Origin: Tetracentron sinense
Taxonomy: Eukaryota > Streptophyta > Magnoliopsida > Trochodendrales > Trochodendraceae
NCBI GenBank assembly: GCA_015143295.1
Contig: CM026561.1
Location: 41,358,875-41,422,874 of the forward strand
DNA: 64,000 bases
Direction: 5' to 3'
Part shown: positions 991-10,980 of the stretch, piece after piece
Position numbering within the stretch: the first letter of the stretch is position 1
Layout of the letters: each line of letters opens with the position of its first letter
Position numbers and translations under genes: made by a program
Notes under the pieces: model-generated
Databases searched by the model: none
Told to the model about the DNA's origin: nothing
The model's input: only the letters and a program-made list of their open reading frames with translations

Positions 991-1204
991 CTAAAAAAAG
1001 AAGAAGCACTACAAAAAATATCATTCCGATTACTTTATTCATGAAGAAAGCAAAGAGGAATGCTAGCCCATATGCTCACTGGCAGGTAAAAGAACATGCT
1101 CCCTCCTTGTGTATAAAAGGTGTTATGGTAATTATATGTCCTTTTGTACGCCAGCACTCTTCAGAAGAAAATGTTTTAACCAAACAAATAGCACATGCAA
1201 ATGC

Positions 1205-1240
1205 AATATATATATATGTGTGTGTGTGTGTGTTGTGTGT
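1205..1240. repeat. TA/TG microsatellite
   Basis: A run of TA dinucleotides passes directly into TG dinucleotides. It accounts for the short threonine/histidine-rich ORFs predicted on both strands here. Confidence 0.9.
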
Positions 1241-1249
1241 AAGTGAAAC

Positions 1250-1668
1250 GGTTCCCATTAGAGGTGCTCACTAGAGGTTCTAGTGAGCGGCCCCACTAGA
1301 ATCTCAACACATGGCATGTCTTTTGGGGATCCGGCCGTTGGATATAAAGGTCAGTCCCATGGGAGACACGCGGTAAAAAATCAGACCAAACAAATGATTC
1401 TAGATCGTCCAATTAGACCCCAATTTGTCAGCATTAACCTCCTAGGGGTAACTAGACCCTACCTAGGCTATAGAAAATGCTGATTTTCCAACTTTGGATC
1501 GGGCAGTTTAGACATCTCCGATCAGGCTAACTTTTTGCCAGGTGTCTCCCAAGGGGCGTACCTTGACATCCAATTGTCAGATTTGAAAAACAAACCTACT
1601 ATGTGTTGAGTTTTTAAGGGGCGGCTCTGAAGAGGTTCTAGTAAGCACTACCCACCAGAATGTCACCT
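1250..1668. mobile_element. MITE-like element with imperfect inverted ends
   Basis: The first 60 bases (containing GGTTCTAGTGAGCGGCCCC and then ATCTCAACACAT) recur as an imperfect reverse complement in the last 65 bases (ATGTGTTGAG, then GGGGCGGCTC and AGGTTCTAGTAAGC). The roughly 300 bp between them are non-coding. The size and inverted ends fit a MITE. I could not find a convincing target-site duplication, so the family is not assigned. It lies inside the candidate capture element, just downstream of the last visible GSK3 exon, where the GSK3 homology stops. Confidence 0.55.
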
Positions 1669-1717
1669 ATATATATAGAGAGAGAGAATAAGTTAAAGTT
1701 AAAGCTCTGAGGCATAC

Positions 1718-3239
1718 TTCCTGTTTAAAGTTGAAAAGAGGGGGTAAAGGGCGACCATTTGGCAGGCGGGTATTGGGTTCACGGAGCTCATCAAAGAAAG
1801 GATGTGCACATGCTTCTAGCTGCAATGACGAAAACAGAGGTCAGACAAGTAGGACGGCAGTAATTATCCATCTCAATGAAGAAACTAATTGCTTTGGGTT
1901 TAGAAAGACTTCAAATTACATCAGAAAGCAAAACCGATGCCCCGCGAGAGGAAATGGCAAACATGAATGAGATCAAATATCCATTGATGAGTAAATGGTG
2001 AATCATAATGATATCTCATTACTAGAGGACTTGTTTTGGGGGACTTTAAACTAGGCAGTGATCAAATATCATTAAAAGAATAGAAACTGTAAACTCACTG
2101 CATTGCAACGAAGACTTGGTGAGTATTGAAGAAGCCGTGAAGCAAGATCAATCGCTTCAGGAGGCATCCGTTTGTGGAAAACCTGAAACAAAGAACTTCA
2201 AGGTAAATGCCTCCACTTCTAGTATGAGACGAAACAACACAATTTGCAGTGCTTTACTAATTTTTAAAATATACTGACTTATCCAGAAAAGCTGTAGACA
2301 AATCACAACCATTAATTATTATATGAGTAGCTCGGGACACAGAAGATAAACTTGGACAAAGAATCTAAAACCAGATAGGAACATGAAGAATGACTTTAAA
2401 ATAAATACATAAAAAGGAAAACCTGATTTTAAGACGCTATTAAACTCAACCCCTTAGGTTTAGATTGACAAAATAATGTGAGGCCAGTATTTCAAACCAC
2501 AAATACTAGCAATGCACATAATGACATTTCCTTCTTGATAGAACCACAGACACCTCAAAAAGTATGTTAACCTCCCAATGAAATGAGTTCCATGTGTGAA
2601 GGTGTTCTGGAACCTCTAATCCACTTTAACAATCACAACTTCTAAAATATCTTTCTCTTGCGAGGAAACCAATAAATTTTCCATACACTAATTTTTGGGA
2701 GACCACTGAAAAACAGAGATATATTAAAAGAGAAAAACATAAAATGCATACCTTGTGCCAAGGGTGAGCTTTTATCTGAGGAAACCTAAAGTCGGTATAA
2801 TTTGGATTCATACAGCGAATTTCTTCCCGAGTTGGAGTACCAAGAACCTGCAAGAAGGCATCTACGATGTAATCACAAGGATACTGGAATTGCACGACAT
2901 AAAATATTGACCATGGTACTGAAGCTGCACCTTGATAATCTCTACAAGCTGGTCCACTGCACTTTCTCCAGGAAACAATGGCTATGAGAATTTTGAAGTT
3001 GAGAGAAGTCAGCAAGATAAATATAGGACCAGATTGGAAATACCTATGAGAACATTGTCAGGAATTGCAGAATCTAATTAGTTCAGTAAGTTGCTGACCT
3101 GACCAAGAAGAAGCTCAGCAAGTACACAACCAGCTGACCAGATATCAATCGAGGTTGTATATTCTGTAGCACCAAATATGAGTTCTGGAGCACGGTAGTA
3201 ACGAGAACATATGTATGATATATTTGCTTCGCCTTTGAC
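1718..3239 (-). pseudogene. GSK3/SHAGGY-like kinase fragment, five exons of the C-lobe
   Basis: Five exons read in order on the minus strand: 3239-3099, 2981-2931, 2847-2752, 2182-2099 and 1819-1718. All have AG/GT borders, all are multiples of three, and together they give 158 open codons. They cover the activation segment with the regulatory tyrosine ([17 protein letters not shown]), the [16 protein letters not shown] helix, [43 protein letters not shown] and [11 protein letters not shown] up to PPLFNFKQE. This is the family's usual exon structure. The glycine loop, catalytic lysine, HRD and DFG segments are missing: nothing recognisable lies between 3240 and 8180. The last exon is also absent down to base 1. 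A full plant GSK3 has about 380-470 residues. The frame is intact but the gene is not, so I call it a captured fragment. It could be transcribed, but it cannot encode an active kinase. Confidence 0.85.
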
Positions 3240-9071: not shown

Positions 9072-9079
9072 CTGAAAAA

Positions 9080-10060
9080 CCAACAACCAGAAACTAATTC
9101 AGCTAAAATAGTTCAACAAAACTATTTAAACTTGCAAATATTTACATTTTCTACAAGACAAATTCATAAAGGAAACCTATTATAACTATCAAGTAAATAG
9201 ATTTCTGACTGATAAGTGCAAGAATTGTGGAAAGATTTCAGTTTTTTTTTTTTTTAACAAGATCGTTATCCGGTGGCTGTTGCTCAACAAGAACAAAAAC
9301 GAATAGAAAGATACATATCTATCTCAAGTTGTTACCAGATCTATAAAATTAAACCCCAATTTCAGAAAATTCTCTACGAAATTGAGCCAAAAAAGAGTCA
9401 TGCCACCAACGGCCTGCAAATCGATCTAGATCTAAAACCGCAAAACCACAAAATCCAAAACAAAAGCCATCAAACCAACCAGATCAACAAACAAAACCAC
9501 GGCTACAGACATCACACCATCCTTAAACAAGTCCGATCTACAAATAAAACTCTAAAACCAGAAGAATCAAAGCAAAAACAAGTCGATCTACAAAACAAAA
9601 TCTTTTAAACCACAAAAGTCACCCGATCTACATCCAGACGACCTCAAACAAAAAAAAAAAAACCAAACATCTACAAATTTTGCCAAACGTTGGATTTAAA
9701 GAGATTAATAACTCTATAATGTTCTTTCAAGCAATAACTCTAAACCGTTGTCTTTCAATACAAAAACAAGAGATTAATCAAGATAGAACAAGAAAAACAA
9801 CTTTTTTCGGGTTCTCAAGTAATATTTCTTCAATCCATTAGCTTCAGAACCCAAATTGAGAAAACTAGAGACGAATCAACCAAATGCAAGAAAACGAAGA
9901 ATATATGTAAGGAGGACCAGAGACGATCGGCCATTGATTCGGAAAACCAAAAGCCCCAATCCCTTAAACAACGAACTCAACAGAAACTCTACTCGCATCA
10001 AATCCACCACAAGAAACCTATGAATCTGAGAAAAATCATTTAAATCCGCGTTTTTACCAC
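9080..10060. other. Non-coding stretch between MAEA and ISWI fragments
   Basis: A/C-rich sequence on the plus strand, with many AAACC and GATCTA words. The 111-codon plus-strand ORF at 9273-9608 is low-complexity and unlike any family I know. The next ISWI exon expected after 10061 on the minus strand (KREKARL...) is not present. Confidence 0.6.
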
Positions 10061-10294
10061 CTGTTCTTCCTCGTCGTCGCTCTCGGCATCTCCGTTCGCA
10101 TCATCATCCGTCGCCGGTGGATTATCCTCGCCTGATTCGTTGTCATCTGAACCAGCCATCCTCGCCACGGCTTCAAGCTCTTCCTCGTCTTCCTCCTTGA
10201 TAATCTCTTCGTTCTTCTGTTCTTCCTCTGAAGAAATCGAGTCGTTCGACGGATCTTCGTCGGATGAAACATCGGATGTTGAAGGTTTCGCCAT
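10061..10294 (-). pseudogene. ISWI (CHR11/CHR17-type) chromatin remodeller, first exon only
   Basis: A 78-codon exon starts MAKPSTSDVSSDEDPSNDS and is almost entirely acidic, including EEDEEELEAVARMAGSDD. It ends EEEQ before a GT donor at 10060. This is the characteristic N-terminus of plant ISWI ATPases, where the EELEAVAR block is conserved. The complete protein has more than 1000 residues with SNF2 ATPase, HAND, SANT and SLIDE domains, and none of these exons occur in the window. The GC-rich sequence at 10295-10480 looks like the gene's original 5' UTR and promoter. It passes directly into the CACTA subterminal repeats at about 10486, which suggests the piece was captured with its promoter. 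Confidence 0.75.
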
Positions 10295-10485
10295 GGATTT
10301 CCAGATCGAGGGTTTCGTCGAGTAGAGAGAGAGAGAGAGAGCCCGAGCCGAAGCATGGGAGCCGGGGAGCCGGAGAAGGTGGCCGGAGCTGGGAGCTGGA
10401 GCAGAGAGCAGTGGAGGGAAAGGGAGAGAAATTGTGGAGGGAAAGAGAAGTGGGAAAAGGGTCGGGCCCTAAATTTGCAAATACA

Positions 10486-10755
10486 GGTCCTTTCACGGCG
10501 TTTTTAAAAAGTGCCGTGAATGGCCATGTCTTCCGAGGCACTTTTTTAAAAAACGCCGTGATAGAATCCCCCAACTACGGCGTTTCTTAAAAAGCGACGT
10601 GATAGAATCCCCCAACTACGGCGTTTTTTAATAAAACGCCGTGATAGAGTCCTTCCGCCATATATTCGACGGCGTTTCTATAAAAACGCCATGGTTGACT
10701 GTCTTTCGAGACGTTTTTGTTAAACGCCGTTAAAAAATTGCCGCTAAAGGCTTGT
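10486..10755. repeat. CACTA subterminal repeat array (GGCGTTTTTAAAAACGCC type)
   Basis: Seven or more imperfect copies of a palindromic motif built on CGGCGTTT...AAACGCCGTG are spaced about 25-45 bp apart. Several are followed by ATAGAATCCCCCAACTA or a similar phrase. The array stops about 12 bp before a GTAGTG terminus at 10767. Arrays like this, next to CACTACAA ends, are where the transposase binds in En/Spm-type elements. Confidence 0.8.
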
Positions 10756-10980
10756 ATTTTTGTAGTGAGTCCTAACCCATCAAGGAGACTATAGATCATC
10801 CTTATAACCCGATATACTTAATTAATGCATAAACCACCACTGTTTGGCTACAACTGAAACCTTAACTGGAGTAGACTTTATCCGGGTTTGGACCATGAAC
10901 ATTGCCAAGACCATAAACCTTATAGAAAATCTTACATGATCGAGACCGTGGACCCTCTTCCATCCACCGTCAAATGAAGC

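Follow-up and report, generated by a model that had tools for sequence, protein, structure and literature searches.

A CACTA transposon of Tetracentron sinense carrying pieces of five host genes, with related copies that suggest stepwise capture

The element and its cargo

The stretch of DNA analysed here, hereafter the window, comprises 64,000 nucleotides of contig CM026561.1 of Tetracentron sinense (NCBI GenBank assembly GCA_015143295.1) and corresponds to C11:41358875-41422874 of a 1.16-Gb genome; positions without a contig prefix are window positions. Its left part is occupied by an element with CACTA termini. Since the left terminus, CACTACAAAATTTAAG, is located 506 bp outside the left edge of the window (C11:41358368) and the right one at 10767, the element spans 11,274 bp. 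Between the ends lie pieces of five host genes (ISWI, heat shock factor (HSF), an EBF-like F-box gene, MAEA and GSK3) and one segment without a recognised gene (Table 1). For all six pieces a resident source is present elsewhere in the genome at 96-99% identity.

Table 1. Features of the CACTA element in the window and the sources of its captured pieces.
Feature	Position in window	Strand	Source (identity)
Left part of the element, starting outside the window as CACTACAAAATTT... and including subterminal ACGGCGTTTTT-type repeats in an array	1..1034	.	
Terminus look-alike CACTACAAAAAATA, internal to the element	1007..1020	+	
GSK3 gene piece with introns; exons 3239-3099, 2981-2931, 2847-2752, 2182-2099, 1819-1718	1033..4261	-	C1:51785916-51789177 (99%)
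Dispersed repeat resembling a miniature inverted-repeat transposable element, shared with the GSK3 source but not with the C17 paralogue	1245..1677	.	
Captured segment without a recognised gene	4262..7752	.	C13:41302589-41306455 (98-99%)
MAEA (GID9) gene piece, consisting of a remnant of exon 1 (8956-8843) and of exons 8770-8603 and 8304-8182	7792..8989	-	C11:9446502-9448473 (pieces 97.5-100%)
EBF-like F-box gene piece, comprising an intron and the first 29 codons of the exon that follows it	8987..9676	-	C15:30029490-30030177 (99.0%)
55-bp stretch between the EBF-like and HSF pieces	9677-9731		
HSF gene piece, from upstream of the start codon	9732..9963	-	C10:20433742-20433974 (96.1%)
ISWI piece, comprising 44 nt upstream of the ATG, exon 1 (10294-10061) and the beginning of intron 1	9957..10338	-	C16:36585194-36585576 (97.65%)
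Right end of the element; subterminal repeats, terminus GTAGTG	10338..10767	-	

Both ends carry terminal inverted repeats (CACTACAAAA; 12 of the first 15 bases alike) and subterminal repeat arrays, and in all nine elements compared, i.e., that of the window and eight others that were read (two on C1, one on C2, two on C6 and one each on C13, C14 and C20), these features are confined to the two ends. Elsewhere in the window, over 53 kb, the subterminal motif occurs once. The copies displayed share the right end and differ in their flanks. Perfect 3-bp target duplications (AAG, ATT, ATC, TGT and AGA) border five of the eight copies in which both ends were readable (C20_3 was left out), and a CAA duplication, beside an eroded tip, was found in one of the eight.

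An earlier note on this DNA, which had been made from the letters of the window, proposed that a CACTA terminus with a subterminal array closes the element at 10767, and this end is real and recurs in other elements. The left boundary that the note placed at 1007, on CACTACAAAAA, has to be abandoned: two copies run across this point unbroken, and the true end, with its inverted and subterminal repeats, is situated further out. The first 1,034 bp of the window differ from the copy C1_34 at 2 positions and continue in C13_39 at 99.3%, and the part at 671-968 recurs in an element at C9:20.73 Mb. Just to the left of 1007, at 878-985, there are tandem and inverted TTTTAAACG-type repeats that are distinct from the terminal arrays.

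The GSK3 exons match solved GSK3-type kinase chains (best 1.6e-73) and those of MAEA match solved MAEA chains (3.5e-22), both with support from Pfam over the cut-off (Pkinase and CTLH, respectively). Pfam gave no match for the ISWI exon, which was identified through its source (8 mismatches and 1 gap in 383), because, at C16, SLIDE exons specific to ISWI follow on that strand after 14 kb; we take these to belong to one gene. A third ISWI-like locus, at C4:12790304-12790700, has a TGA inside its SLIDE domain and is perhaps a pseudogene. At the C15 source the frame of the EBF-like piece continues into an F-box, and we take this gene to be EBF1/2. Exon 1 of MAEA is fully open in its C11 source, relative to which the window copy has internal deletions, and the GSK3 piece differs from its C1 source at 7 of 1,585 sites compared base by base. 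Its left junction shares 2 bp and its right junction none. For 10 open frames from the unassigned parts of the element, those tested from the segment at 4262-7752 included, no Pfam match over the cut-off was obtained. A 121-bp unit is tandemly duplicated within this segment (6996-7237), as it is in C1_34 and C13_39. No match to Transposase_21 (PF02992) falls inside the element among the best 150 of 1467 candidates scored in the genome.

The pieces of ISWI, MAEA and GSK3 are each truncated inside their gene and all lie on one strand, as the earlier note had read them; this is the minus strand. That note counted these three gene pieces, and the EBF-like piece, the HSF piece and the segment at 4262-7752 must now be added to them. 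Since introns were carried along, it was DNA that was captured and not RNA. The note's view that a CACTA element had here taken up host gene pieces with their introns is upheld by parents at 97-99% identity and by further copies of the termini; the genome search that it had suggested recovered both, and neither of the outcomes that it had named as contradictory (complete GSK3, MAEA and ISWI genes contiguous at this locus, or termini without other copies) was encountered. It had also placed the ISWI promoter at the upstream end. However, as the ISWI piece starts 44 nt before the start codon, the promoter was not captured, and the DNA at 10338-10767 is the transposon end.

Related copies and the order of capture

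The ISWI piece is present at at least 11 places in the genome (the best 40 of 279 candidates were scored; for the right end this was the best 40 of 429). HSF and ISWI are joined at the identical base, with a 7-bp overlap, in all nine copies read, and MAEA and EBF likewise, with a 3-bp overlap, in all seven of the nine that hold both. The remaining two, C2_9 and C14_27, contain ISWI and a longer HSF piece and neither EBF nor MAEA; C2_9 even includes the HSF domain itself (PF00447 at 4.6e-19, with matching solved HSF1 chains). In the copy at C19:28.52 Mb, EBF is 122 bp longer than in the others, there is no MAEA match, and the sequence diverges from that of the window exactly at the MAEA junction. 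C13_39 has no GSK3 and shows 768 bp of other DNA between the counterparts of window positions 1034 and 4262. Among the copies read, the six pieces occur together in that of the window and in C1_34 only.

Because the partial copies hold only the first pieces of the series, and because HSF and EBF are longer where the next piece is absent, we infer that ISWI and HSF would have been captured first, followed by EBF, MAEA, the C13 segment and GSK3. Each newcomer would have been placed on the left side of its predecessor, which in two cases was trimmed. A side branch is formed by C1_8, C6_13 and C6_48, in which part of MAEA has been replaced by a piece of an NPF/POT transporter gene (source C8:23206362-23206857, 99%) and a piece from C15 (C15:33255318-33256078, 99%), with a 9-bp overlap. 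C6_48 (C6:48.41-48.43 Mb) measures 18 kb owing to an insert of approximately 10.7 kb within its NPF/C15 part; a long frame in this insert is presumably gag-like.

All nine elements have right ends that are 97.1-99.3% alike. Their left ends fall into two groups, the outer 430 bp being 97.9-100% alike within each group and 75.5-77.7% between them. One type occurs in the window, C1_34, C13_39 and C20_3, and the other in both copies with only ISWI and HSF. Since the copies of the former type all carry MAEA, whereas those with ISWI and HSF belong to the latter, it is probable that MAEA had already been captured when the cargo acquired a new left end. Such an exchange of ends is predicted by the hybrid-element model, in which two neighbouring elements move as one, as set out in parts of two papers on Pack-CACTA elements (PMC13317346; PMC8903248).

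Transposase genes and direction of reading

Among the 150 of 1467 candidates scored, Transposase_21 genes situated less than 25 kb away were found inward of 8 of 40 right ends and outward of none, and inward of 7 and outward of 1 of 40 left ends, where 0.003 would be expected per end. These represent 14 distinct inward genes, all of which read from the right end inward, so that in related elements transposase reading starts on the right. One stretch, C18:3091225-3114349, comprises both ends and a transposase that has a stop codon in its domain. A 10.2-kb element on C9 was considered as an autonomous partner and rejected: 3.5 kb of it held no open frame of more than 115 codons (no family scan was run), and pairing ends with Transposase_21 matches did better.

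The six recognised genes (ISWI, HSF, EBF-like, MAEA and GSK3, and NPF in the sister copies) are all in sense to the right end, for which p=0.03 under random orientation.

Possible transcripts and proteins

Any RNA from the element would probably start at the right end (10338-10767) and read the captured genes in sense. The earlier note reasoned that splicing of ISWI exon 1 to a MAEA acceptor at 9072 would give an early stop and hence no long fusion protein. That acceptor belongs to the EBF-like F-box piece. The early stop stands, as splicing to the next acceptor leads to a stop 51 codons into the next exon, but the expectation that there would be no long fusion does not, since the MAEA exons, with their short first intron retained, could be joined through standard splice sites to the five GSK3 exons in a single open frame of 355 codons. 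The predicted product has 319 codons from the first Met and lacks the kinase N-lobe.

This frame raises the possibility of co-option, i.e., that a chimeric RNA or a MAEA-GSK3 fusion has been kept by selection, for instance because it acts as a decoy for either GSK3 or the GID/CTLH ubiquitin ligase. The shared frame, the reading of the recognised gene pieces in the direction of the transposase and the distribution of changes against the GSK3 source (0 of 474 exon sites and 7 of 1,111 other sites) would fit such a role. However, the contrast between exons and other sites is not significant (Fisher p=0.11), the frame requires both the retention of a 72-nt intron and the removal of an intron of nearly 5 kb, the probability that frames agree by chance is not small, and both MAEA and GSK3 are found together in two copies only. 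Co-option is, therefore, improbable. On the basis of the sequence, we would take the MAEA-GSK3 frame to be a product of chance pending RNA evidence, and most likely the element has no cellular function beyond its own spread.

Other features of the window

Outside the element, remnants that we take to be RNase H/LINE-like are present immediately to its right (11000-11400) and at 60785-62470. The frame at 40072-40506 resembles what is presumably a plastid RNA-binding protein, and 54961-56462 contains a gene that we take to encode a cohesin (SCC1/REC8-like).

Discussion

Taken together, the element in the window is very probably a non-autonomous Pack-CACTA transposon that has grown by repeated capture of host DNA, beginning with ISWI and HSF and ending with GSK3. 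Host genomic pieces would have been taken up one after another, each being inserted to the left of the earlier ones. Capture may have occurred when a break in the element was repaired incorrectly, in that an ectopic template would be copied and joined with little or no homology. Two neighbouring elements may subsequently have moved as one hybrid, giving the swap of left ends, and the transposases of related CACTA elements would move the element in trans.

Several observations weigh against this interpretation. The target duplications do not match in the window copy (TAA/AGT) and in C1_34 (TAT/GTC). For the order of capture, nine copies were read, together with 851 bp of a tenth, whereas the ISWI piece occurs at no fewer than 11 places. 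The ends with a transposase nearby are only 76-86% like those of the window, and no transposase was found near closer ends among the candidates scored. Finally, the window and C1_34 differ at 0 of 3,225 sites of GSK3 (1035-4261) and at 17 of 7,028 sites compared elsewhere (Fisher p=0.003), a pattern that is not predicted by plain descent from one progenitor; gene conversion or repair between the two GSK3 copies may account for it.

The mismatched target duplication of the window copy could also be explained if a degraded segmental duplication or a mis-assembly simply lay beside a CACTA end, so that the gene pieces would not be cargo of a transposon at all. Against this, elements on other chromosomes have these ends around cargo in common, differ in their flanks and, in the five copies mentioned above, are bordered by perfect duplications; we regard this alternative as very improbable. 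That the cargo arose by retroposition or by horizontal transfer out of another species, for which the MAEA exons might be cited (82-87% like a gene on C7, without stops and with a ratio of nonsynonymous to synonymous substitution rates, dN/dS, of ~0.22 by NG86 or 0.32 by YN00), is scarcely credible, since introns are present, the MAEA gene on C11 is ~99% identical, which makes that on C7 a paralogue, and the remaining sources are also resident (96-99%). For MAEA alone, horizontal transfer or a lost paralogue was considered from the divergence from C7 (dN 0.094, dS 0.435; NG86, 135 codons) and dropped in view of the near-identical source on C11.

Returning to growth by repeated capture, the process may have been one-sided: the right (transposase) end would stay fixed while DNA on the left is exchanged in every round, which would place new pieces downstream of old ones. 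The sense orientation of the six recognised genes is offered as support for such a ratchet, which we nevertheless consider rather doubtful. If it were true, host exons would gradually become fused into a transcription unit in this way, and the MAEA-GSK3 frame may be the newest product.

This type of element is already known. Pack-CACTA elements of Arabidopsis, rice and maize likewise consist of non-autonomous CACTA ends around host pieces from several loci (PMC8903248; PMC13317346), and, as far as the account of maize goes, Pack-CACTA held the most loci, often several per element (PMC8903248). In the present case, several successive states and the sources are found within one genome and a comparison of the copies gives the order, which sets it apart from those elements as portrayed in the parts of these papers that we draw on. 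The nearest single case is Tgm-Express1 of soybean, a member of the CACTA superfamily that contains fragments of five host genes, comprising exons and introns with retained splice sites, and which, according to the part of that report used here, was studied as an insertion in F3H and is spliced into chimeric cDNAs (PMC1947982). The element described here differs from it in its genes, in the at least 11 places sharing the ISWI piece and in being known from DNA alone. In maize Helitrons, partial cargo that is common to related elements has, in the section concerned, also been read as sequential capture (PMC3288121), although these belong to another superfamily, while terminal inverted repeats and 3-bp target duplications characterise the present element. 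CACTA elements of Chenopodium with captured host gene pieces keep transposase-related coding sequence, to the extent that they are described in the passages at hand (PMC8978399), whereas none was recognised in the element of the window. The cargo set ISWI/HSF/EBF/MAEA/GSK3 was not found in literature titles and abstracts, a search outside of which most subscription journals fall.

What stands out here, therefore, is an unusually clear preserved series of growth steps together with their sources. Judging from the portions of the papers cited above, multi-gene capture by transposons is usually argued from finished elements. Here, the sources and the earlier and later states are available in one genome, the junctions are defined to the base and one cargo is found on two left-end lineages, which makes both the repair and the hybrid-element models directly testable. 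The copies also supply chimeric exon combinations that can readily be sought in RNA.

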